NCBI GenBank assembly: GCA_016840545.1
Contig: JAEOSD010000010.1
Coordinates: forward strand, 1 to 33,807
Direction: 5' to 3'
Origin: Promethearchaeota archaeon
GTDB lineage: Archaea; Asgardarchaeota; Lokiarchaeia; Sigyniarchaeales; SOKP01
Length of the DNA stretch: 33,807 nucleotides
In this document: positions 13,812 through 27,440 of the stretch, piece after piece
Position numbering within the stretch: position 1 is the stretch's first letter
Layout of the letters: each line of letters starts with the position of its first letter
The notes under the pieces: generated by a model
Database searches by the model: none
What the model was told of the DNA's origin: nothing
What the model saw: only the letters and a program-made list of their open reading frames with translations
Made by a program: the position numbers and the translations under genes

Positions 13812-14651
13812 ATGATTTCTATGGAATTCACTATTGTTTATTTAAAACAGCTTGCTTTAAAAGTTTATGACGCGGTACATCCACTTCTGGGTCGAAAAGA
13901 GGCATCAGTAAAATCTGAGAGAGGGGCAGGAGGGGATATGACAATGTACATTGATCAGGTTGCTGAAGAAATAATTATTCAGTCTCTAACAAAAGATAAG
14001 GTAAATTGTTTATTAATTAGTGAAGAAATTGGAGAGAAATACATTGGAAATGAACATCAAGCAAAAACAAATCAGCAGGTACTTATAATTGATCCCCTTG
14101 ATGGGTCAAATAATGCTGTAAGAGGTGTTCCCTATTGTTCTGTATCCATAGCATACGCAATTGGGAACAAAATGAATGATATAATAAGAGCAGTAGTTCT
14201 TAATCTAAATACAAGAGAGATATATTGGGCTGAAAAAGGAAAAGGAGCTTATTTTAATAGTGCACAGATTCATGTTTCTGATTTGGATATTACACAAAAG
14301 TGTTTTTTTGAATTAAACCTTCCGATGAAAAATTTAATGAAAAGCTTAAAGGAACTAGCTTCATTAATAAGAAGATTTTATCGAATCAGAATCTTAGGAA
14401 GCACTGCTTTAACTTTATGTCAAATAGCAAGTGGCAGCATGGAAGCCTTTATTAATTTGAGAGAAACTAACCGACTAGTAGATGTAGCTGCAGGTTTTTT
14501 AATATTAAAAGAAGCGGGAGGTAAAATCTTTTCTTTAGATGGAGAAGAAATTAATAAAGATTTATCAATAGAAGTAAAATTTCCATTTATTGCGTGTAAT
14601 GTCAAATTAGAATCGTTTCTAAAAAACGAATTAACCCTAAGAGAGTATTAA
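13812..14651 (+). CDS. Inositol monophosphatase / archaeal FBPase family phosphatase
   Basis: IIDPLDGSNNAVRGVPYCSVSIAY metal site; LVDVAAGFLILKEAGG. Confidence 0.9.
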   Translation: MISMEFTIVYLKQLALKVYDAVHPLLGRKEASVKSERGAGGDMTMYIDQVAEEIIIQSLTKDKVNCLLISEEIGEKYIGNEHQAKTNQQVLIIDPLDGSNNAVRGVPYCSVSIAYAIGNKMNDIIRAVVLNLNTREIYWAEKGKGAYFNSAQIHVSDLDITQKCFFELNLPMKNLMKSLKELASLIRRFYRIRILGSTALTLCQIASGSMEAFINLRETNRLVDVAAGFLILKEAGGKIFSLDGEEINKDLSIEVKFPFIACNVKLESFLKNELTLREY

Positions 14652-14759
14652 TTTGATTTTTTAAGCTTAGTAGAAAAAATAATTTTTATACAAGTACGTC
14701 CTATTTTTTATTAATCCTAGAAATTATGAGATCCGAAATTTTGTCATTATCTCAAATAA

Positions 14760-16298
14760 ATGCAGTTTTCAAAGAATAAGAAATTAAATAAGGCAGAACT
14801 ACTTAAAAATGAGGGAAAGTACAAGGAAGCCCTCCAACTATTAAATAATCTTGAGGAAAAGGCTAATCTTCCTCCTCAAGAAAAACTTGCCTGCCAACTC
14901 CTCAAGAGCACATGTTTAAATAGATTGGGACAAGATGAAGATGCCCTCAAGCTTGCTAAACAAGTATATCAAGAGAGCAAAAGAATGGGAAATCTTCTCC
15001 TATCCTTTGACGCATCTATTGAAATAGCTGAAGCATTACTTTTTCTTGGAAAATTAGATAAAAGCTTTGAAATAATTGATAGAAGCGAAAGTCTGCTCAA
15101 ACTTATTACTCAAGAACCGTCAAAAGAGCTGATGCGAAGGAAGGCATCTATTGCATACCTTAAAGGTTTTTTTCACTCGGAAAAAGGTGAATTAGATTTA
15201 TCCCTACAATTCTTGAAGCAATCTTTAAAGTTGCAAGAAGGATTGGGCTACAAACAAGATATCGCTCGGTCTCTTACTCAACTTGGAATTATTTATCTAT
15301 TTAAGGGTGAATTTGAACGAGCTCATGGATATTATGAGAGGGGGTTAATACTTGAAGAAAATGGTTTTAACAGGAATATACCCCATCTTTATATCGGTAT
15401 TCAGATCACTTCATCGTATAACGGAGAGTTGGAAGCAGCTTTGGAATGTATTAAGCGAGGTTTGGCTTTTGCCGAGGAGTTAAATGATAAATACTTAATT
15501 CCAATGTTTCTTAATAATATGGGACTTACCTATTACCAACAGAATGATTTAATTCGTGCATTTGATTGTATTGAGAGAAGTCTGATCGGTTTTGAGAAGA
15601 TAAATAACATTGGGATGATTATTACCGTTCTAGACTCTCTGATTGAATTAGCTATCCATATGAACTCTTATGAACAAGCCCAACGATATTTTAATCGTAT
15701 GAAATTGTATATAGATCAAGAAAAAAGCAAGCTAAATGATGCTATTTATCGTATGGACGAAATACTGATGTTAAAAATTAGTCCTAAAGCGAATGATCGA
15801 GTAAAAGCTAAAAAATTATTTCTGCAGTTTGTTGAAGAAGAAATCGTTTGGTGGGACATTAGAATTCATGTTCTTCTTCACCTTTGTGATATACTCTTAA
15901 TTGAACTACGTGAATCTAATGATCTGAAAGTAGTGGACGAATTACAATACTATATTACCCAAATATTGGATATTGTTGAGAATCAAAACATTTATTGGTA
16001 TTTAGCTGAAATTTATTTATTCCAGTCAAAAATGTTTTTATTAATCTTGGATTTAAAAAAAGCCCAACGATCTTTGACTCAAGCCCAGCACATATGCGAA
16101 AAATGTGGATTTAGCAGATTGGGCATAAGAGTTTCTAATGAGCAAGAGGAATTGGCTAAACAATTAAGTAGATGGGAAGATTTAAAACAATCAAGAATTA
16201 CTATTGATAAACGTATGGACTTTGCCCGGTTGGATGAGCAATTGCTGCGAATGTTCCAATTACGTTTCTTTTTGAAAAAACAGATTTCTACACAATAA
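14760..16298 (+). CDS. TPR repeat protein (paralogue of 25225..26766)
   Basis: Repeated helical pairs e.g. ALECIKRGLAFAEELNDKYLIPMFLNNMGLTYYQQNDLIRAFDCIERSL. Confidence 0.85.
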   Translation: MQFSKNKKLNKAELLKNEGKYKEALQLLNNLEEKANLPPQEKLACQLLKSTCLNRLGQDEDALKLAKQVYQESKRMGNLLLSFDASIEIAEALLFLGKLDKSFEIIDRSESLLKLITQEPSKELMRRKASIAYLKGFFHSEKGELDLSLQFLKQSLKLQEGLGYKQDIARSLTQLGIIYLFKGEFERAHGYYERGLILEENGFNRNIPHLYIGIQITSSYNGELEAALECIKRGLAFAEELNDKYLIPMFLNNMGLTYYQQNDLIRAFDCIERSLIGFEKINNIGMIITVLDSLIELAIHMNSYEQAQRYFNRMKLYIDQEKSKLNDAIYRMDEILMLKISPKANDRVKAKKLFLQFVEEEIVWWDIRIHVLLHLCDILLIELRESNDLKVVDELQYYITQILDIVENQNIYWYLAEIYLFQSKMFLLILDLKKAQRSLTQAQHICEKCGFSRLGIRVSNEQEELAKQLSRWEDLKQSRITIDKRMDFARLDEQLLRMFQLRFFLKKQISTQ

Positions 16299-16424
16299 AA
16301 TTTTTTCAAATTCTCGATTGATATTAATTATGAAAGAGATTCAATAGAAATTACTAATTAATCGCTAATTATTTGAACTTTAGAAGTTTAGAGTAAAATT
16401 TAATAATAAAAAAAAAGAATATAT

Positions 16425-16486
16425 AGGAAGATAGTTGGTTTAGGTGTGGTTAATTGAGAAGCCATTTATCTAAACTCATTCCTCCC
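16425..16486 (-). repeat. Hairpin element copy A, followed on the minus strand by a T-run (A9 at 16408-16416)
   Basis: TTGGTTTAGGTGTGGT..GAGAAGCCA...CTAAAC core shared with copies B and C; outer stem AGGAA/TTCCT. Confidence 0.75.
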
Positions 16487-16541
16487 ATTTGTAAATTTTT
16501 AGTTAATTTTTCAATTATCCATTGCTATTATGGAATCAATA

Positions 16542-17891
16542 TTAATACCACCATGGTGGCAGATCCCATATGTGATTATCGGTACCCTCATCTAATACTG
16601 TGTTGGCTGTATTTCGCCCAATAACATAGCAATTACTGCTTCCAGGTCCAAGCCAGATGGGAGCCATGTCAGCTTGGAAATTGGTCATATCGTTTCCTAT
16701 CATAAACCAATTAGTACATGGAGCCCATAAACCGGGCCAGTCATCTATTCCGATACAGATTCCTGCTAACCCTAGACCTGTAAATTCATTACATATGACT
16801 TGAACATCATGTACCCAAAATCCATATATCCCAGCAAAACTATCCTCTTCCATGATTATATCGTTGTGATAAATCTTTGCTTTAATTGTGGTATCCCGTT
16901 CATAAAATAAGGTATCAAAATCCATTATTTCAATACCAGCGACTAGTGCTTGGATAGTATTATGCCTAATTCGATACGAGCCAAGTTGCTGATAAACATC
17001 AGGCTCTACTCCAATAAGGGGAATATCTCCATGCAAGATAAATACTCCCTCAACGCAGGAAGAAAGTTCATTATAGGAAAATTCTAAAATGGAACCAAAA
17101 TTATCAATTAATTGTATACCGACTGAAACAGAATTAAGCTTATTGTTTATGAAGCTTAATTTTCCATCTAATAAACCAGCTACCACAAAACTCGTCATAG
17201 TATCTTCAAATGAACAAGAAATTATTCTATGTTTCCCATATACTGGATCAGCAGAAATCATGAAACCACCAGGCTCATTAAGATATTCTCGACCACCAAT
17301 AACATTGCCCTGAGCATTACCGTTATGCCCTTTAAACTTAACAGATTTAAATAGTGAGTTTGAGTGCCCTGCTATTCTTACTATATTACTAACCGCAGTA
17401 GATGTCTCATAAAATGTTTGCCAGGGATAAGCTGGATCGAGTGCCGTGATTTCAAAGGTCAAATCACAAATCTTAATATCACAGTCTTCAAAAAGAAACC
17501 AAATAGAGAAAGGATAAAGAGTAGACGGATCCTCAGGATCAGTTTGGATTAGTTCTATCCCCGCGAGACTCGGATTCAATCCACGTAAAGTATCAATTTT
17601 AGTTAAATCCATACCTGCTCCTTTAAATACACCATTAAAGTTCTGAACGATAATATTATTCGCATAAAATTGTCCAGCAGTAAGTTGGACTATACATCCC
17701 TGTCCTGTTGCGATAGCATCATTGAATGCAGCCTGGATGTTGGCAGTATCATCTCCACCAGAAGGAGACACAAGAAAAGTTTTTGGCCGGGACCACGTAC
17801 TTGCAGGTTGAACTACAAAAGCTAGGAATCCTAATGTAACTCCTAATGTCATTAGTACTAGAATAAAAGTTGATTTTGTACTTTTTTTCAT
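16542..17891 (-). CDS. Secreted right-handed parallel beta-helix protein
   Basis: Signal peptide MKKSTKSTFILVLMTLGVTLGFLAFVVQPAS; pectate-lyase-like repeats; paralogue of 18971..20368. Confidence 0.8.
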   Translation of the reverse strand: MKKSTKSTFILVLMTLGVTLGFLAFVVQPASTWSRPKTFLVSPSGGDDTANIQAAFNDAIATGQGCIVQLTAGQFYANNIIVQNFNGVFKGAGMDLTKIDTLRGLNPSLAGIELIQTDPEDPSTLYPFSIWFLFEDCDIKICDLTFEITALDPAYPWQTFYETSTAVSNIVRIAGHSNSLFKSVKFKGHNGNAQGNVIGGREYLNEPGGFMISADPVYGKHRIISCSFEDTMTSFVVAGLLDGKLSFINNKLNSVSVGIQLIDNFGSILEFSYNELSSCVEGVFILHGDIPLIGVEPDVYQQLGSYRIRHNTIQALVAGIEIMDFDTLFYERDTTIKAKIYHNDIIMEEDSFAGIYGFWVHDVQVICNEFTGLGLAGICIGIDDWPGLWAPCTNWFMIGNDMTNFQADMAPIWLGPGSSNCYVIGRNTANTVLDEGTDNHIWDLPPWWY

Positions 17892-17937
17892 ATTTTTCGC
17901 ACTTTTTTTTCTATTATTTTATAAATTATACAACACT

Positions 17938-18000
17938 TTAGTTGCATTGATTTAAATATTATGCAACGGGTTAGTTGCATTAATTAAAAAATATGCAACG
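17938..18000. promoter_or_regulatory. Double palindromic operator in divergent promoter region
   Basis: GTTGCAT-N13-ATGCAAC (17941-17967) and GTTGCAT-N12-ATGCAAC (17974-17999), 33 bp apart; TATA-like CATATATAAATC just downstream. Confidence 0.75.
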
Positions 18001-18159
18001 ATCCATATATAAATCTTATGATCAAAAATTAAATTATAAATATTCATTTTATAAGAAAGAATAAATATAAGGCCGTACAATTTGTTATTAAGGAACAGAA
18101 ATATTTTTATTCATAAAGGAAAGAAAAAAAGAAAAAATCAGATAAAGGATGGGTAGGTA

Positions 18160-18864
18160 ATGTCGATAAAAAAAGAAATAAAAACTTTTTTTCCAAGTAC
18201 AGAGGAATCTTGGGAAGAATTAATAGATAAACACCCCTTACGGTATGATGTTTGGATGATTCTACAAATTTATCATGAGAAACACGTATCTGACATAGCT
18301 AAATTAACAAAAAGAAACAAATCTACGCTATCAAGAGTTTTACGAAGTATGGAGGAAGATGGGCTCGTACTCTCGAGGAAAGAAAATTTATTAAAAGAAG
18401 GAAAGATTCCTGCAAAATATTATCGTATTAATCCTGAAATTCAGGAGGAGGTGCCAGATTTTGAGGATATACTTTCTTCGAATGATCCCCAAAAACTTCT
18501 AAACTTCTATGAATATGAGCTTACAAATTATCAGAAGGCAATTTATAATGGCAAAAAATTACTCGATTATTTAAATCCTTTATTAAATCACTTGAAGGAT
18601 AATTTGGATGATATTGAAGAAGCTAAACAGATATATGCTAAGTATTGGTTAAATATATCACGACCGTGGTTTAATCTCATATATTTAGATGAAGAATGCT
18701 ATGAAAAATTTTTCGATATACGGTTAGAATATATGCTAAAGTTAGAAAAGCTTGCAAGGGAACATAAATTGGATACCAATAGCGCATTCATTTATTTCGA
18801 TTTTTCATTACCGCTAAAATCTATATTTGAATTGAAAAAACAAGAAAAACAAAAATATGAATAA
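18160..18864 (+). CDS. Winged-HTH transcriptional regulator with novel C-terminal helical domain
   Basis: LRYDVWMILQIYHEKHVSDIAKLTKRNKSTLSRVLRSMEEDGLVLSRK; C-terminal domain shared with 21553..22317. Confidence 0.85.
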   Translation: MSIKKEIKTFFPSTEESWEELIDKHPLRYDVWMILQIYHEKHVSDIAKLTKRNKSTLSRVLRSMEEDGLVLSRKENLLKEGKIPAKYYRINPEIQEEVPDFEDILSSNDPQKLLNFYEYELTNYQKAIYNGKKLLDYLNPLLNHLKDNLDDIEEAKQIYAKYWLNISRPWFNLIYLDEECYEKFFDIRLEYMLKLEKLAREHKLDTNSAFIYFDFSLPLKSIFELKKQEKQKYE

Positions 18865-18897
18865 CAAAATTTAAAAATAAGAAAAAAGTAATATAGA

Positions 18898-18960
18898 ATG
18901 GAGGATAATTGGTTTAGGTGTGGTCATTCGAGAAGCCATTTTTCTAAACTGAGTCCTCCT
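18898..18960 (-). repeat. Hairpin element copy B
   Basis: ATGGAGGATAATTGGTTTAGGTGTGGTCATTCGAGAAGCCATTTTTCTAAACTGAGTCCTCC; nested stems GGAGGA/TCCTCC and GTTTAG/CTAAAC; A6 run on upstream plus side (T-run on minus). Confidence 0.8.
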
Positions 18961-18970
18961 TTTTCCATAT

Positions 18971-20368
18971 TTAAAAATATTTCATTAATTCCTTCTTCTG
19001 CTCCATTGCTTCTTGAATCTCTTGACCTATTACAGGCCCTTGAATTTTACTCACACCTATTAAAATGTTATTTGTGCCATAATCTGCAACCATGTCATTA
19101 GCATGACCTAAAACAATGCAATTTGCGGAGGCTCCGCCTAACCAAATAGGGGCTATTCCCGGAACGAACCCCCACATACCGTTATAATCTGCAACTTCCC
19201 ATCCTTGGAAATTATTGCCAATGATCATTATTCCATCCGTAGGCTCGTACACTCCAACGGCCATCCCAAAAGGACCTGTTCCTTTTATTTTATTATTAGC
19301 TATTAAAACACTCTTACCACCATCAATCCATAACCCAGGCCCATAAAATGAATCTTCACTGTAAAGTTCATTATGAGTTACCACATAGTTTTGCTCTAAG
19401 AAAGTATAGTCATATATTTCGACGGCAGCAGTCCAGCCATCTACTGGATTAGTAGCCTTATTATGCTCGATTAGATAATTATTTGAATAAGTAAATGGCG
19501 TTCCATAGGTTCCAATAATTCCGCTGTTTATCCCGATGTTACGAGAAATTTTAGCATTAGTATATTGACAATTGACAATTGTTGTGCCCCTAATTAAAGA
19601 ATTTTCAAAAGTATTGTAAGAAATATCAATAATCGAATTCGTTAAACCGTATATTGCAATGGGTTGGAAACTATTTGCTATGTAGCAATCACTAATAGAA
19701 ATATCGCCTGATATTGCATGTGGTGTCCACAATGTTATAGGTTCAAGAATATTTGGCACAGATTGTCCCCAAGAATTGATATAGTATTCTCCTAAAATTT
19801 CAATTCCATCTAATTTTACATTATAAAAATATTCTCCCAAATATTGTTCAATACCTATAATAGAGTAAAAAGATTCGTCCATATTGTAAGCCCAAGGCCA
19901 AGAATCCCATAACTCCGTTTTACCAATAGCCTTAAATGTGATATCTGCAACTTCAAGCTTTGCTGGAACCTCTGGATTAGTTCCAATACTTTCCAAGTGA
20001 AAAACAAAAAAATCTGGATAGGGGTCTGCGGGGAATGGATCGCTGTCAGAATGCTCATTTACAACGATTGTCTTACCTTTTCCTTGACCTTTAAAAATTC
20101 CGTCAAAATCAGTTATATAGATTGTATTTTTGATATAAAAGATCCCTTCTCCTAGAATGATACTACTTCCTGATCCTGCGGAAGATGCGGCATCAAAAGC
20201 ATTTTGGATAGCTATTGTATCAGTATCCCCTGTAATATCCCAAGAGGGATCCACATATATAACTTCTGAATCTGCTCTGGTCGTGCCAATAGCAAAAATA
20301 AAAAATCCCATAATCATTGCTAATGCTAAAATTGCGACTAATGGTTTCGATTTTGTTTTTATTTTCAT
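18971..20368 (-). CDS. Secreted right-handed parallel beta-helix protein
   Basis: Signal peptide MKIKTKSKPLVAILALAMIMGFFIFAIGTTRA; AIQNAFDAASSAGSGSSIILGEGIFYI and APIWLGGASANCIVLG shared with 16542..17891. Confidence 0.8.
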   Translation of the reverse strand: MKIKTKSKPLVAILALAMIMGFFIFAIGTTRADSEVIYVDPSWDITGDTDTIAIQNAFDAASSAGSGSSIILGEGIFYIKNTIYITDFDGIFKGQGKGKTIVVNEHSDSDPFPADPYPDFFVFHLESIGTNPEVPAKLEVADITFKAIGKTELWDSWPWAYNMDESFYSIIGIEQYLGEYFYNVKLDGIEILGEYYINSWGQSVPNILEPITLWTPHAISGDISISDCYIANSFQPIAIYGLTNSIIDISYNTFENSLIRGTTIVNCQYTNAKISRNIGINSGIIGTYGTPFTYSNNYLIEHNKATNPVDGWTAAVEIYDYTFLEQNYVVTHNELYSEDSFYGPGLWIDGGKSVLIANNKIKGTGPFGMAVGVYEPTDGIMIIGNNFQGWEVADYNGMWGFVPGIAPIWLGGASANCIVLGHANDMVADYGTNNILIGVSKIQGPVIGQEIQEAMEQKKELMKYF

Positions 20369-20433
20369 TTTTTTACTCCAAATATTTTTTTATTTTCAAT
20401 TTTACATTTTATAATAGAATGAAAAAATAATTA

Positions 20434-20507
20434 TATAGAATGGAGGATAATTGGTTTAGGTGTGGTCATTCGAGAAGCCACTTTGCTAAACTTCCTCCAT
20501 TTCTATA
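20434..20507 (-). repeat. Hairpin element copy C (longest stem)
   Basis: TATAGAATGGAGGA...TCCTCCATTTCTATA outer stem with one bulge, inner GTTTAG/CTAAAC and GTGG/CCAC. Confidence 0.85.
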
Positions 20508-20574
20508 GGTTTGATTTAAGATTTCAACCATCCTGAATAGTCTCCTTATATTGGAATTTAAATTATTTCTGCGT

Positions 20575-21306
20575 CTAATGAAGAATTATGTTATCTATTA
20601 ATGTTATTCCATTTAAACCATAAAGGTTATAATTTGGATTCGACCCGGAATAATCTTCGCCTACTATAACCAAATAGTGGATTGTATGCATTTTTGCTGT
20701 CTCTCCTACTTCCCAAGAGTCATATGGATTTACAAACTCCCCTGATCCACTACCACATATTAAAACTGATTCTAAGGTGAAAGTTACCCAAACATACCAC
20801 CACCATGGCATATATTTAATGTTTCCATCTTCATCAAAATCATCAGGTCCAAGGGTATCTAAATCAATTGTGAATCTTAACTGATATATATAATCCATAA
20901 CTCCAAAAAGTACTGGTGTACCTGCAGGAATAGGTCCGGCGGGAATAAAAACATAAAATGGAGCATCTTTCATACGCAAATTAACGGAAACCAGAACTTT
21001 ATTATCTTTTAGTATTCTCTCCGCTACAAATCCATCATAATCACAGTCCAATGGTGGCTTGTAATACCCCCATGGAACATAAGATGGATCAATTAAATGA
21101 GGTTGTATTGCTAGATTTCTCTCAAAATCCACCATATAACCCACTGGTTGATCATCCACAAGATTATTAGCGATTAGCCAATCCTCTATTGGTCTAATTT
21201 TTATTTTTCCTTTTCCTCTATGTGCCACAGCTGCTGGAATGAAACTAAAAATGACTGTTATTACTATTACTAATAATGCTATTCTTTTTATTTTCAATTT
21301 TTCCAT
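20575..21306 (-). CDS. Secreted protein of unknown function
   Basis: Signal peptide MEKLKIKRIALLVIVITVIFSFIPAAVA; no recognised family. Confidence 0.7.
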   Translation of the reverse strand: MEKLKIKRIALLVIVITVIFSFIPAAVAHRGKGKIKIRPIEDWLIANNLVDDQPVGYMVDFERNLAIQPHLIDPSYVPWGYYKPPLDCDYDGFVAERILKDNKVLVSVNLRMKDAPFYVFIPAGPIPAGTPVLFGVMDYIYQLRFTIDLDTLGPDDFDEDGNIKYMPWWWYVWVTFTLESVLICGSGSGEFVNPYDSWEVGETAKMHTIHYLVIVGEDYSGSNPNYNLYGLNGITLIDNIILH

Positions 21307-21345
21307 TTTTTTTTCACTCTTTTTTTTTAATTAAATTATGATATT

Positions 21346-21382
21346 GAGCAATCCCAATAATATGGTAAAAATGAGACGGCTC
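21346..21382. promoter_or_regulatory. Operator-like imperfect palindrome upstream of regulator 2
   Basis: GAGCAATCCCAATAATATGGTAAAAATGAGACGGCTC aligns without gaps to 24457-24493. Confidence 0.55.
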
Positions 21383-21398
21383 ATCATCATTAATATAT

Positions 21399-21418
21399 GG
21401 GAAAGATTTATATTTAAA
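21399..21418 (+). promoter_or_regulatory. BRE/TATA promoter of regulator 2
   Basis: GGGAAAGATTTATATTTAAA, identical at 24511-24529 region. Confidence 0.65.
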
Positions 21419-21552
21419 TATTGTGATCATCTTTATAGAGAAAAAAAAACAAAGTTTTATTTAAAGTATGAAAAAGACTGTTTTACCTATTAATTTTAAA
21501 AAATAATTGTTCTATATTAAAAAATTACAATTCAACGGGATATTAGATTAAA

Positions 21553-22317
21553 ATGAGTAAAGATAATAACGACAAAAATAAATTAAATTTAAAAAATATA
21601 ACTACTAAGCAGGAAATGTATAAAGACGTAATTCTGGAAGAAGACTGGCTAAATTTAATCGACAAGCATGAATTACGCTATGAAATTTGGGCGATTCTCA
21701 AATTATATAATGAACTGAATGTTACAGAAATTTCCCATTTAGTAAAACAAAGCAAATCTACCGTGTCAAGAGTATTAATAGGGATGAAAAAGGATGGATT
21801 GATTATATCAAGAAGAGGTGTAACCAAAGAAGGTGAAGGAGAAAAAATCCCGCCAAAATACTATCGTATAAACGAAGAATTTAAAGCAAAATTTGAAGGT
21901 GAAATAGGTGAACTTGAAATTCCTACTGATCCTCAAAAACTTCGTGAATTTTTCATTTCAGAGATTATGAATTTCAGAAATGCTATTTACAATATTCATA
22001 AATTACTTGATTTTATGGATCCTTTATTAAACATTTTTGAAGATCAATTAGAGGATATAAATAGAGCAAAAAGTATTTATAGCACATATCTTTCTGGCAA
22101 AAATGAACCATGGTTTAATCTACTGTATTTTGATCATGAACGATATGAACAGTTTTTAGATATACGGTTAGAATATTTGCTAAAATTAGAAAAACTTGCT
22201 AGGGAGCAAGAATTAAACCCTAAAAATGCCTTTGTCTATTTAGATGCCTCATTACCGCTAAAAGCGATAATTGAACTGAAAAAAAACAAACTTTTAAAAT
22301 CAAAAAAAAGTTTATAA
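21553..22317 (+). CDS. Winged-HTH regulator, full-length paralogue
   Basis: LRYEIWAILKLYNELNVTEISHLVKQSKSTVSRVLIGMKKDGLIISRR plus conserved C-terminal domain. Confidence 0.85.
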   Translation: MSKDNNDKNKLNLKNITTKQEMYKDVILEEDWLNLIDKHELRYEIWAILKLYNELNVTEISHLVKQSKSTVSRVLIGMKKDGLIISRRGVTKEGEGEKIPPKYYRINEEFKAKFEGEIGELEIPTDPQKLREFFISEIMNFRNAIYNIHKLLDFMDPLLNIFEDQLEDINRAKSIYSTYLSGKNEPWFNLLYFDHERYEQFLDIRLEYLLKLEKLAREQELNPKNAFVYLDASLPLKAIIELKKNKLLKSKKSL

Positions 22318-22414
22318 AAAGATTTTTTACACATAAATATACTTCTAAAGAAATGATGAGATTTTGATTTTAAAAAAAATCATCCTAACTAAAAATTGAT
22401 TAAAAAAAAGATAT

Positions 22415-24391
22415 TTAATTATTTTTAATTATTTTTTTTTTGCGTTTTTTTTCAGGTTTTCCTTCATCTTCATTTTTACCTAGCTTTCGCTTAATAAGCC
22501 AGAACGCAAGTCCAACTACGCCTGATACAGAAGCGGTAATTATAGTATTCCTAATAATTTTCTCTGTCTCGCGCTGTTCAGCTTGTGTATCTTTTTGTAA
22601 CACCACTTGTTCAGAATCTAAGTGTCCCAAAGTATCAGTTACATAAAATTTAATTGTTACTTCTCCATCTGGAAGAGCTTTCCATGCCGATGGGTCGATT
22701 ACACCCGCATTACTGTAAAAATAATGACTTGGTCCATCATTTAAGGTGTACCATCTTTGGGCGATGTGTGGTTCATCTATATCGAGGTCATATGCTGGCG
22801 CACTATCCCAAACTTCATTGGTTGATGGACTTTGGATTGTTATTCTAGGATTAGTATCATCTGTTGTGAAGGTGAACGATTTACTGTCTGAAATGTATGG
22901 CGTAGTAGTTGTAGCAGACACATGAAGGATATGATCTTTATCCTCAGAAGGAAGCTTAATGATAGTTGATTCAGACCATGGTTCGTTAGGATCACTATCC
23001 CAATGATAAAGTACGCTCTCAAGCAATACAAATTCACTTTTCAGGTCAACATTTATTATAGTATCGCTTTCAAGCACTGAATACTCTGATGGTGAAATGA
23101 GATGAAAATCTAACTGTTCTGGATTTGCATCCCATTTTATTAAAGCATAGCGACTATTTATGTGTCCACAAGTATAGACATAGTTGGAGTCACCCTTTAT
23201 ATTGGTTCCATATGCATTACCTGTAATAGCAGGTGGAAATACTGGTCCCCAAGTGGAATTCCACACCTGATTTCCATAATTATCCCATTTCACGAGTAAT
23301 AGGTCACTATCAGAATCAGCATAAGAGTCGGTATAACCAGTCGTGTAGAGATAATTACCATATCCCCATAGCGACCATGCACTATCATCGAGTGCTCCCC
23401 CCCAAGTTTGATTCCAAACTTCTTTCACAGTACCACCTTCTTCCTGCCATTTCACAAGGAGTAGATCTTTACCTCCATTTCCATCACTTTTCGTAAATCC
23501 ACTTGTATAGATACTATTTCCGTCCAACCATATTTCCTGTCCTCCGTCATCATCATCTCCAGCCCATACTGTCTCCCATTTCCAACCTCTATCTTGAAAT
23601 GGACCAGCAAAAACATACTTTTTCAAAAATAAATCACTGTTTCCACTTCCTCTTCCAGTTATTCCACAGAGGTAGACTGCTCCTCCTGTGAATTGACCAA
23701 GATAGTATCCTGCCATTGAATAGTAGATATCATCGTGTAGTCCTCCAAAAGTAGTATTCCCTAGAGCTTCTCCGGTTGTATCATCCCAAGTTACAAGTAC
23801 AGCATCTGCATCTCCCGTTGTGGTATGTCCACATGTATAAAGATATTGCCCTGCTGCGAAAACTGCAGATGGTGCATCATAACCTGGACCCCCCCAAGTA
23901 CCAACCCATAAACGATTACCATCTGTATCCCATTTAATTAGTACAAAATCGTACTGATCACCATCTTTGTTTGTAATTCCACAAGTGTAAATATATCCTC
24001 CATAACCCCATACGTTAGTACCCTGTTCTATAGTGTATTCGCCATCCCCAGCATACGCTTTGCTCCAGATGACATTGCCATTACTATCCCATTTCGTTAA
24101 GAGCAAATCCCATCCTGTCAGATGCATCATATCCAAGTTTTCATAACTCCCACATGTATACCAGAATGTTCCATCACCCCAAATAGCATTATAATAATCA
24201 TCCCATACTGACTGGCTTACTCTATACCAAACTATATTTGTTTGAGAACTCTTCAGTTTAGTAAAAGTGTCATTACTCAGCTCATTGTATCTTGAGGTAT
24301 ATAGTATAATTCGATTTGTATCAAAAGTAAGAAGTAATGGGAAAATTAGGAATAACATCAATACTAAAATACCAAAATTATTTTTTTTCAA
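22415..24391 (-). CDS. Secreted/anchored beta-propeller (SBBP-like repeat) protein with Ig-like region, C-terminal TM and basic tail
   Basis: About 7 repeats of (D)LLLVKWD..GN..WN.TWGG; C-terminal TIITASVSGVVGLAFWLIKRKLGKNEDEGKPEKKRKKK. Confidence 0.82.
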   Translation of the reverse strand: MKKNNFGILVLMLFLIFPLLLTFDTNRIILYTSRYNELSNDTFTKLKSSQTNIVWYRVSQSVWDDYYNAIWGDGTFWYTCGSYENLDMMHLTGWDLLLTKWDSNGNVIWSKAYAGDGEYTIEQGTNVWGYGGYIYTCGITNKDGDQYDFVLIKWDTDGNRLWVGTWGGPGYDAPSAVFAAGQYLYTCGHTTTGDADAVLVTWDDTTGEALGNTTFGGLHDDIYYSMAGYYLGQFTGGAVYLCGITGRGSGNSDLFLKKYVFAGPFQDRGWKWETVWAGDDDDGGQEIWLDGNSIYTSGFTKSDGNGGKDLLLVKWQEEGGTVKEVWNQTWGGALDDSAWSLWGYGNYLYTTGYTDSYADSDSDLLLVKWDNYGNQVWNSTWGPVFPPAITGNAYGTNIKGDSNYVYTCGHINSRYALIKWDANPEQLDFHLISPSEYSVLESDTIINVDLKSEFVLLESVLYHWDSDPNEPWSESTIIKLPSEDKDHILHVSATTTTPYISDSKSFTFTTDDTNPRITIQSPSTNEVWDSAPAYDLDIDEPHIAQRWYTLNDGPSHYFYSNAGVIDPSAWKALPDGEVTIKFYVTDTLGHLDSEQVVLQKDTQAEQRETEKIIRNTIITASVSGVVGLAFWLIKRKLGKNEDEGKPEKKRKKKIIKNN

Positions 24392-24456
24392 TTGTTTTCG
24401 CCTACTTAATATCGTTTAATGATTTTTTTTATATCATTTTTTAAAATTAAATTTTA

Positions 24457-24493
24457 GGGCTGTCCCATTGAGATGGTCTATATGGGACGGCTC
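24457..24493. promoter_or_regulatory. Operator-like palindrome upstream of truncated regulator 3
   Basis: GTCCCAT (24462-24468) N13 ATGGGAC (24482-24488); same 27-bp geometry as 17941-17967. Confidence 0.65.
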
Positions 24494-24509
24494 ATTATCA
24501 CTAATATAT

Positions 24510-24529
24510 GGGAAAGATTTATATTTAAA
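24510..24529 (+). promoter_or_regulatory. BRE/TATA promoter of regulator 3
   Basis: GGGAAAGATTTATATTTAAA duplicated from regulator 2 upstream region. Confidence 0.65.
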
Positions 24530-24662
24530 GGTTGTGATCATTTTTTTAGAAAAGAAAAGTTAAAATTTCACTTTAAGAACTAAAGTACCGTTTTACTTAT
24601 TAATTTTAAAAAGTAATTGTTCTATATTAAAAAGTAACAATCCTACGAGATGTTGGATTGAA

Positions 24663-25010
24663 ATGAGTAAAGATAATAACGATAGTAATAAACTAAATTT
24701 AAAAAATATAACTATTAAGCAGGAAACGCCTAAAGACATAATTTTGGAGGAAAATTGGTCCAAATTGATGGATAAACATGAACTACGCTATGAACTTTGG
24801 TCAATTCTCAAACTATTTAATGAATTGAATGTTACAGAAATTTCCCATTTAGTAAAACAAAGCAAATCCACCGTGTCAAGAGTATTAATAGGGATGGAAA
24901 ATGATAGATTGCTAATATCAAGGAGAGGAAGAAAGAAACCGGAAGACGGAGAGAAAATTCCACCTAAATACTATCGTATAAACGTAGATTTATTTCCTGG
25001 GAACAAATAA
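24663..25010 (+). CDS. C-terminally truncated winged-HTH regulator paralogue
   Basis: Aligns to first about 107 aa of 21553..22317 (MSKDNND.NKLNLKNIT..KYYRIN) then ends VDLFPGNK. Confidence 0.75.
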   Translation: MSKDNNDSNKLNLKNITIKQETPKDIILEENWSKLMDKHELRYELWSILKLFNELNVTEISHLVKQSKSTVSRVLIGMENDRLLISRRGRKKPEDGEKIPPKYYRINVDLFPGNK

Positions 25011-25224
25011 ATACTATTTTATTCTCAAAGAAGGAAAATATCATACTCATTTCTACGTTCTCCGAAATGTTGAGATATTAAGCTGAGAGAAATGGACTTC
25101 TCTAGAATTAGAGAAAATAATATTAAATATGAAAAGCACTTAAATTTATGTTAACAAGTTTGTAAATATGAAATTCAAAGTAAAATAAACAAAAATTAAA
25201 TATGACATAAAAAAACTTAAACCT

Positions 25225-26766
25225 ATGTTAAATTCAAAGGCCAAGGAATTAACACTGGCAAAAAAACTAATGAAGGAAGGAAAATTGGAAGAAGTTTTTC
25301 AATTAATAAACGAATTTGGGAAAGAGAAAGCTCTCTCACGTGAAGAACAAATCTATTATTATTTACTTAAGAGTTCTCTATCGCTGTACTTATTTCAAGA
25401 CCAAGGTATTCTCAAGTACGCTGAAAAGGCTTATCAAGAAAGCCAAAATCTTGGGATTTCCCTTCAATTACTTGATGTATATGTTCAGATGGCCATGGGT
25501 CTAATATATCGGTTTAAATCAGAAGAAACTCTTGAATTACTAGGAAAGGCTGAAGACCTGTTCAAGATGCTCACTGAAGAACCACCAACAGAGCTTTTAG
25601 AAAGAAAAGCTTCTATCGCTTTTATTAAAGCCTGGCTTTACTCTGACCAAAACGAAAAAGATAAAGCTTTAGAATGGGCTCAACAAGGGCTTAAAATACG
25701 AGAAGAAATCGATCTTAAAGCTGGTATTGGAATCTCTTTATACCAAATTGCATGGATATATTTTAAGAGCGACAATGAACTTGCTTTGAAATATGCAGAT
25801 CGATGCATAGAATTTTGCGAAAAAATTAATTATAAGAATTTGATTCAAAAGTGTAATATGTTAAAAGGGTTGCTTTACTTATGGAAAGGCGAGTTAGCTT
25901 ATGCTTTAAAATACTTTAATCTTAGTAAGAAACTACTAGAAGAATTGCCCAGAGTAAATAAAGATTCATTCAGCGCAGCACAATTGTTCCATCTTATCGG
26001 AAGTGTTTATCGGGACAAAAATGAGTTAGATATAGCCAAGGAATATTTCGAAAGAGCTTTAGTAATTAAAGAAAAGGTTGGTGCTTATTTTCCTAAAGTA
26101 ATGACTCTTGACGAATTGATATCTTTATCACTTTATAAGAGTGATCTTAAGGAGGCGGAGAGATATTTAAAAGAAATGAAGCGAATCAGCGACCAAGAAA
26201 ATAATAAATTTCTAAATTTATGTTATCGCGTAAATATGGCTAGACTACTAAAATTGAGCCCACTTATTAGTAGTCGAGAGAAAGCTGAAGAGATACTAAA
26301 AGAATCTTTACATGATAAGGTGGCTGATAGCGAAGCAAAAGTAATAACTCTGCTTAACTTAAGTGATTTACTCTTAGCTAAGCTAGGTAAGACCAATGAT
26401 CTTAAAATACTCGACGAAATAGAACTATATACAACTCAAATACATGATATTGCTAAGAACCAAAACTCCTACTCATTTCTTGCCGAAACATTCTTGCTGA
26501 AAGCTAAATTGGAGTTATTGACATTAAATTTGAAACAGTGTCAACGATTTTTAGACAAAGCTCAAGATATAGCCGAAACATATGGTCTGGACCTATTACT
26601 TAGGAGAATTATAATAGAGCAGGATGATTTGGTTAAACAAACTGATAATTGGGAAACACTAAAGAGAACCAAGTCTAACATAGCTGAACTCATAAATCTG
26701 GCTCACATTGAAGAGCAATTAAACCATATGCTTAGGAAGCGCTTTCTTTTAAAAAATGCTGTTTAA
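25225..26766 (+). CDS. TPR repeat protein (paralogue of 14760..16298)
   Basis: Collinear similarity: AYQESQNLG / VYQESKRMG; LLERKASIAFIKAWLYS / LMRRKASIAYLKGFFHS. Confidence 0.85.
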   Translation: MLNSKAKELTLAKKLMKEGKLEEVFQLINEFGKEKALSREEQIYYYLLKSSLSLYLFQDQGILKYAEKAYQESQNLGISLQLLDVYVQMAMGLIYRFKSEETLELLGKAEDLFKMLTEEPPTELLERKASIAFIKAWLYSDQNEKDKALEWAQQGLKIREEIDLKAGIGISLYQIAWIYFKSDNELALKYADRCIEFCEKINYKNLIQKCNMLKGLLYLWKGELAYALKYFNLSKKLLEELPRVNKDSFSAAQLFHLIGSVYRDKNELDIAKEYFERALVIKEKVGAYFPKVMTLDELISLSLYKSDLKEAERYLKEMKRISDQENNKFLNLCYRVNMARLLKLSPLISSREKAEEILKESLHDKVADSEAKVITLLNLSDLLLAKLGKTNDLKILDEIELYTTQIHDIAKNQNSYSFLAETFLLKAKLELLTLNLKQCQRFLDKAQDIAETYGLDLLLRRIIIEQDDLVKQTDNWETLKRTKSNIAELINLAHIEEQLNHMLRKRFLLKNAV

Positions 26767-26840
26767 GTATTAATTTTTAAATTCAAAATTTTTTTGAATT
26801 AACCTTTAATTCTTCTATTTATATAGTAAAATACTAAATT

Positions 26841-27440
26841 TTGAGTAAATTGAAACGAATAAATCGCGATTTTTTTAACAGACATACGGTAGAAGTTGCT
26901 AAAGAATTAATAGGTAAATATATAGTGAGAAAGACAAGAAAAGGAGACATCATAGGAAAAATAATTGAAGCGGAAGCTTATTTAGGTCCAGATGATAAGG
27001 GATGCCATAGTTATAATTATAAAAAAACAGAAAGAACCGAGCCAATGTATATGAAACCGGGAACGTTATATATTTACTTTATATATGGAATGTATTACTG
27101 CTTGAACGTAGTCACTGAACCAGAGGATATGCCCTGTGCGGTTCTAATAAGGCAACTATATCCAGTTAATGGAATTGAACTTATGAAAAAGAATAGAAAC
27201 GTTAAAATTGGGAAAAACTATAAAAACCTAGCTGATGGGCCTGCCAAATTATGTATGTCTTTAAATATTACAAAGGAAAAGTTTAATGGAAAAGATTCTT
27301 GTGCTCCTAATTCACAACTTTTTTTTACTTATGGTGAAAATGTTAACCCCAATGACATTACTTTAGGAAAACGAATTGGTATTGAATATGCGCAAGAAGA
27401 TAAGGATAAGCTTTTGAGATTTACATTAAAGAGTCCTTAG
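26841..27440 (+). CDS. DNA-3-methyladenine glycosylase (AAG/MPG family), TTG start
   Basis: AKELIGKYIVRK...IIEAEAYLGPDDKGCHSY...MYMKPGTLYIYFIYGMYYCLNVV. Confidence 0.93.
   Translation: MSKLKRINRDFFNRHTVEVAKELIGKYIVRKTRKGDIIGKIIEAEAYLGPDDKGCHSYNYKKTERTEPMYMKPGTLYIYFIYGMYYCLNVVTEPEDMPCAVLIRQLYPVNGIELMKKNRNVKIGKNYKNLADGPAKLCMSLNITKEKFNGKDSCAPNSQLFFTYGENVNPNDITLGKRIGIEYAQEDKDKLLRFTLKSP

Follow-up and report, generated by a model that had tools for sequence, protein, structure and literature searches.

The window analysed here is the whole stretch of 33,807 nucleotides (nt) at positions 1 to 33,807 of contig JAEOSD010000010.1 (assembly GCA_016840545.1), from a Promethearchaeota archaeon of the Lokiarchaeia. 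It contains a block of nine genes, in the order TPR1, BH1, R1, BH2, UNK, R2, PROP, R3 and TPR2, which encode two tetratricopeptide repeat (TPR) proteins, three winged helix-turn-helix (wHTH) regulators and four exported proteins. All nine open reading frames (ORFs) are present where a preliminary description of this DNA, made without database searches, had placed them. That description had each of the three regulators divergent from an exported protein, and three such pairs are indeed found (BH1/R1, UNK/R2 and PROP/R3), R3 being a truncated copy without the C-terminal domain; BH2 follows UNK in tandem orientation, and BH2 and R1 converge. TPR2 follows R3, and TPR1 precedes BH1. The block is probably an enlarged, partly duplicated version of a Lokiarchaeal module composed of an exported cargo protein, a divergent promoter with an operator, a wHTH regulator (R) and a TPR protein, where the exported cargo is exchangeable.

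Relatives of R were obtained by querying genome contigs with an alignment; a single-sequence query found none. R is present in 14 of the 65 genomes of the family, in two genera, and this genome carries four R genes, the fourth of which (C153, beyond the window) is divergent from a signal-peptide gene encoding 179 amino acids (aa). Among the 13 R loci compared, with the outgroup clade left out, the divergent partner is exported at 12 (179–658 aa), the exception being a 141-aa membrane protein in the relative G080. As background, the same crude predictor was run on 400 kb of genome G076, where it called 3.4% exported, whether counted by gene or by divergent side; the binomial chance of the linkage is 3e-17, or 6e-13 with obvious orthologues merged. 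The association of the regulators with exported proteins, which had been put forward for checking in related genomes, was thus found there, and the layout recurs in independent assemblies. The gene immediately after R encodes a TPR protein of ~470–520 aa in G020, G008, G030, G007, G021, G073 and G080, and likewise in G002, where R is split across two contigs; the outgroup apart, such a TPR gene comes after R in the relatives wherever the contig runs on. In G030 the TPR and R genes overlap by 4 nt. The earlier suggestion that TPR proteins are partners of the regulators is supported by these eight genomes, as well as by a reciprocal search, where the top TPR matches were nearly all R-linked TPR genes; TPR-like genes number 1 in 414 in the background. 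A second TPR protein of G020 (L031:11808-13364, minus strand) ends in a cysteine-rich, zinc-finger-like tail. The R start codon used in close relatives, an ATG, reads ATA in G007 and G021 (L035:8016-8657, L037:7896-8537), which may mean another start or a loss of function; premature stops considered for these two genes proved to be annotation effects, the frame being open.

The divergent intergenic regions share a common plan. In 13 of 13 a dyad is followed, at fixed spacing, by CATATTTAAAT-N5-GATCA, and the distance between dyad and TATA box is fixed in all 13 promoters. With a leave-clade-out weight matrix, every one of the regions outscores all 300 shuffles. The perfect form of the dyad, TCCCAT-N10-14-ATGGGA, occurs at exactly two sites in the 2.88-Mb genome, the promoters of C153 and R3, whereas its reversed control occurs at none. 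The R1 promoter has a dyad of its own, GTTGCAT-N-ATGCAAC, in two copies, and no branch in the tree of R proteins is longer than that of R1; a joint change of operator and regulator is therefore possible. The dyad is located just downstream of the TATA box toward the cargo and upstream of the TATA box toward R.

Comparisons of related loci place a break at the operator. Over the TPR gene, R and the operator, as far as the operator edge, the DNA of G008 and G030 is 84% identical, and beyond that edge there is no homology; the cargo of G008 is a NosD/beta-helix protein and that of G030 is an LVIVD propeller with a KNH domain. Homology with G007, which has UNK-type cargo, breaks at the same operator point, within 10 nt. 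The three regulators are 81–89% identical and belong to one clade (support 100/99), in which the TPR, R and operator DNA is 76–84% identical; the types of cargo in this clade are beta-helix, beta-propeller and UNK-type beta protein. To judge by these alignments, the cargo is replaced by unrelated exported proteins while the control part stayed in place. The homology between G008 and G030 also ends just past the TPR gene, which indicates that the TPR-R-operator unit itself was moved or conserved as a block; in G002, a second cargo gene has a promoter copy of its own. Genes for extracellular solute-binding proteins of the SBP_bac_5 type adjoin UNK/BH-type exported genes (L166, L169), a possible link to peptide uptake.

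Features of the block and the evidence for their assignment (positions in the window)
Feature	Position	Strand	Evidence
TPR1, TPR protein of 512 aa, short R-associated type	14760..16298	+	Pfam TPR; top-scoring homologues elsewhere mostly R-linked
3' hairpin element of BH1	16409..16497	-	covariance model, 71 bits
BH1, signal-peptide beta-helix protein, cargo	16542..17891	-	Pect-lyase_RHGA_epim barely over cut-off; predicted signal peptide
BH1/R1 divergent promoter	17892..18159		two GTTGCAT-N-ATGCAAC dyads (17941-17967, 17974-17999); TATA core 18004-18024
R1, wHTH regulator with helical C-terminal domain	18160..18864	+	TrmB/ArsR-type wHTH
3' hairpin element at BH2 stop	18883..18971	-	104 bits; 97% identity to solo element of G016
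BH2, signal-peptide protein, distant BH1 paralogue, cargo	18971..20368	-	no Pfam match; reached by BH1 search, 5e-17
3' hairpin element of UNK	20425..20509	-	75 bits
UNK, exported protein that defines a cargo family	20575..21306	-	alignment and family search; relatives beside R, wHTH-TPR or TPR genes
UNK/R2 divergent promoter	21307..21552		TATA core 21409-21429
R2, full-length wHTH regulator, 254 aa	21553..22317	+	
PROP, exported cargo protein resembling a beta-propeller, membrane anchor at the C-terminus	22415..24391	-	partial CylK match (PDB sequences); transmembrane (TM) segments at 3, 615
PROP/R3 divergent promoter, copy of the UNK/R2 promoter	24392..24662		perfect dyad GTCCCAT-N-ATGGGAC 24462-24488; TATA core 24520-24540
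R3, truncated regulator, wHTH only, 115 aa	24663..25010	+	107 aa matching R2 at 80%, followed by a stop
TPR2, TPR protein behind a regulator, as is usual	25225..26766	+	Pfam TPR

Within the block, R1 and R2 are 53% identical over 222 aa, TPR1 and TPR2 35% over 511 aa, and BH1 and BH2 25% over 491 aa. A 575-nt segment (21307-21881) recurs at 24423-24991 with 81% identity; it starts exactly at the UNK start codon, includes the whole promoter and ends ~110 codons into R2. Since the copy spans the UNK/R2 promoter, the promoter and operator were duplicated to a place in front of the unrelated cargo gene PROP. The duplication of a module of regulator and divergent exported protein, supposed in the preliminary description, is supported by this copy and by the R1/R2 identity. 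Read from the alignment, R3 is a diverged partial copy of R2 which has lost the C-terminal domain, and no remnant of that domain was read in the gap up to TPR2. The two TPR paralogues are the outermost genes of the block, and TPR1 adjoins no R. The block goes beyond chance and is no assembly artefact, because the copies have diverged to 53–86% and the arrangement recurs in independent assemblies.

Pfam searches identified TPR in both flanking proteins and wHTH in R1, with weak wHTH signals for R2 and R3, and found no match for BH2, UNK or PROP. R1 matches TrmB (2.7e-6) and HTH_5 (5e-5), both over the Pfam cut-off; R2 is under the cut-off, and its predicted structure contains a wHTH at residues 31–90 (predicted local distance difference test, pLDDT, 74–95), for which Foldseek found matches to PadR and Phr. 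As to a TrmB sugar-binding C-terminal domain in R, Pfam gave no credible match beyond the wHTH, and the model of the C-terminal domain is of low confidence. The AlphaFold model of UNK is also of low confidence, and there was no PDB match to it with E < 0.001. A defence system was considered and rejected, PADLOC having given generic wHTH and TPR matches only.

An 89-nt element lies ~40–70 nt after BH1 and UNK and directly at the BH2 stop. It is built of two stems, one long and one inner, with the conserved loop GGCTTCTCGAATGACCACAC and a T-run; an Rfam search of positions 16000-25300 gave no match to it at E up to 1. A covariance model detected 46 copies in 22 of the 65 genomes, 1–4 per genome; the three copies of this genome are all within the window, and the 400-kb background has 0. 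As read by hand from the table of copies, 20 of the 28 examined outside the window come immediately after a gene of the same strand that encodes an exported protein, and the element is absent behind some cargo (PROP, C153, G020, G030). Default RNAalifold returned no structure for the first alignment, the arms of which were probably misaligned, and pairing measures over 15 rows gave no excess of compensatory change. With 39 rows, all five measures exceed all 500 shuffles; this alignment had been fitted to the structure and the slid controls also show double changes, so the hairpin structure is only moderately supported. A small conserved ORF opposite the hairpin (MEDNWFRCGHSRSH...) was rejected, many copies having stops, lost start codons or a different sequence. 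The element could be a new RNA, a terminator or a recombination element.

The flanks of the block are chromosomal, with an inositol-monophosphatase-like gene (13812) near the gene of ribosomal protein S10 (12277) on one side and a methylpurine-DNA glycosylase gene (26841) on the other. A solo hairpin is found just after the inositol-phosphatase gene, in the same orientation as in the window, in G016, G078, G076 and G020, and is followed directly by the glycosylase gene in the first three and by a URO-D-like gene in G020. In the closest relative, G016, with an inositol-phosphatase 90–91% identical, 111 nt matching window positions 18862-18972 (95.5%) are joined directly to the match of 26774 onwards (88.6%), which defines one junction at the hairpin edge; everything between the matches of 18972 and 26774 is absent, as is the TPR1-R1 segment. 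The same site in G080 holds genes for a membrane protein, R, two TPR proteins and URO-D, and in other relatives a URO-D-like gene alone or nothing; thus, the site (14651-26841 in the window, L266-L294 in relatives) varies from empty through a solo hairpin, a URO-D-like gene and an R/TPR module to a large block. Another site, in G022 and G010, has retained the hairpin next to the gene of a 132-aa membrane protein without the cargo present in G007. The occurrence of solo hairpins in two genera suggests that the hairpin preceded the cargo of the window, which would be a gain, the alternative being loss in the other genomes.

The gene of a ~633-aa protein that has two wHTH domains at its N-terminus and a TPR part at its C-terminus (e.g., L174:6154-8055) is the divergent or adjacent neighbour of many other UNK family members and of one BH1 homologue. 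This wHTH-TPR protein occurs in 1–8 copies in 49 of the 65 genomes of the family, with longer variants of ~840 and ~990 aa. In a hand count of 30 sampled loci, about 12 of the 28 that have a neighbour on the 5' side show an exported protein in the divergent position (chance 4e-11); at others, the gene opposite encodes a Ras-like GTPase, a TPR protein or a small protein with 3-4 TM segments. Since the same cargo families stand beside both, R plus TPR looks like a split version of the wHTH-TPR protein. Small 3-4-TM proteins of 131–134 aa take the divergent slot at outgroup R loci as well as at many wHTH-TPR loci (L173:4916-5308, with a weak DUF4345 match, L089:3022-3417 and L130:283-687). Longer TPR1 relatives (600–690 aa) repeatedly adjoin Ras-like small GTPases, wHTH-TPR regulators and UNK-type exported genes, and this TPR/GTPase neighbourhood recurs in Lokiarchaeia (L123, L124, L126, L130, L173, L178).

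A working model can be proposed for the module. R most likely binds the dyad of the shared promoter as a dimer. Toward the cargo, the dyad lies downstream of the TATA box, so that bound R would prevent initiation there; the simplest guess is thus that R locally represses its neighbouring cargo gene and also regulates itself. The TPR protein most likely senses or relays a signal by contacting R, and the cargo presumably acts at the cell surface. In the course of evolution, the control part persists and the cargo (beta-helix, beta-propeller or UNK-type beta protein) is replaced, with breaks at the operator edge and with the other end of the cargo often marked by the 89-nt hairpin; the block probably grew around a resident hairpin between the inositol-phosphatase and glycosylase genes. 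Several findings weigh against the interpretation of the block as such a module. R3 lacks the C-terminal domain and the R1 dyad is of another kind, so the block may be partly decayed or cross-wired; R has a patchy distribution (16 of 228 Asgard genomes); the 13 R loci are partly non-independent, with orthologous loci recurring; and the outgroup R genes (G022, G078, G076, G065) have no TPR neighbour. The domains of R and its TPR partner resemble those of the wHTH-TPR protein in a generic way only (hhalign probability 24 and 83 for wHTH and TPR, respectively); consequently, a true gene fusion linking both regulator families is unsupported, and the wHTH-TPR protein is best taken as an analogy.

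A plainer explanation, to which we give a rather low probability, is that these are ordinary divergent regulator/target pairs, tandemly duplicated, with bystander TPR genes and a hairpin that is only a transcription terminator. Lokiarchaeal genomes do have many TPR genes, the hairpin terminates in a T-run, and the duplication in the window is a plain partial segmental copy; however, the R-adjacent TPR protein is always of the same subfamily, rare as TPR-like genes are in the background, non-homologous cargo stands beside near-identical regulators, and the hairpin has a conserved loop sequence and persists without cargo in four genomes. About equally doubtful is an integron-like or site-directed cassette system with the hairpin as the recombination site for secreted-protein cassettes. 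It would account for cargo bounded by operator and hairpin, for the solo hairpins as marks of empty sites, for the G016/window junction at the hairpin edge and for the cargo-free hairpins of G022 and G010, and integrons are enriched in Asgard genomes (PMC9668308). On the other hand, no recombinase or transposase was found among the proteins of the window, to which the scan was limited; the attC boxes RYYYAAC and GTTRRRY are absent from both strands of the six elements examined, on which ground attC identity was rejected, and the conserved loop is unlike attC; there are only 1–4 hairpins per genome; and some cargo (PROP and that of C153, G020 and G030) has none. A Lokiarchaeal form of site-directed exchange of surface or secreted proteins, in which a mobile operator-wHTH-TPR chassis would work with exported-protein cassettes bounded by operator and hairpin, and solo hairpins would be empty docking sites refilled in different lineages, can be entertained tentatively, with slightly more credit.

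Peptide signalling of the RRNPP/Rap kind, in which the TPR protein would sense a re-imported fragment of the exported protein and then control R, fits the position of TPR and wHTH genes next to exported proteins and the SBP_bac_5 genes beside related cargo in G080 and G020. It appears improbable, as the cargo proteins are folded-looking and 140–660 aa long; no short secreted propeptide, a feature of RRNPP systems, was found beside R, the partners being of the sizes given above. Moreover, the cargo is unrelated between loci where R and TPR are closely related, which makes a cargo-specific ligand unlikely. Least credible is a phase- or antigen-variation locus with mutually exclusive surface proteins, the idea raised in the preliminary description. 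Several alternative exported proteins do stand side by side under related promoters; nevertheless, the block contains no long inverted repeats, only chance-like AT-rich arms of 20–37 nt, no invertase was found in the window, and R1 and R2 have different operators, which makes separate control no less likely than exclusive expression. The exchangeable-cargo module is preferred over these alternatives.

Cultured Lokiarchaeia are without an ordered S-layer and bear numerous complex surface proteins (PMC9834061). No regulatory module for Lokiarchaeal surface proteins was described in the literature searched, and the recurring unit of operator, wHTH and TPR offers a testable handle on cell-surface variation in eukaryote-related archaea.

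Divergent regulator/target pairs and TPR-controlled regulators are of known kinds. In a limited literature search, no description was found of a conserved operator-wHTH-TPR chassis with non-homologous cargo and a hairpin that outlasts it; to our knowledge, this combination of swapped exported cargo and persistent hairpin is undescribed. The integron cassettes, with attC at the 3' end of the gene, are similar in having variable genes followed by a conserved hairpin and in solo sites; the Lokiarchaeal elements differ in the missing attC boxes, the lack of an integrase among the window proteins, the conserved loop and the own promoter of each cargo. The RRNPP/Rap systems of Firmicutes may be regarded as analogous in placing a TPR sensor with a DNA-binding protein beside an exported product, whereas in this archaeal case HTH and TPR are on separate genes and the product is a large exported protein and no peptide. 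The Lokiarchaeal wHTH(2)-TPR protein is alike in cargo families and layout, but it joins two wHTH domains and the TPR part in one polypeptide and resembles R and the short TPR protein in a generic way only. Archaeal regulators of the TrmB/ArsR/PadR type, e.g., Phr of Pyrococcus, have a similar wHTH and a palindromic operator in their own promoter; R differs from them in its helical C-terminal domain, to which no family could be assigned, its linked TPR gene and a divergent target in which the cargo has been swapped.

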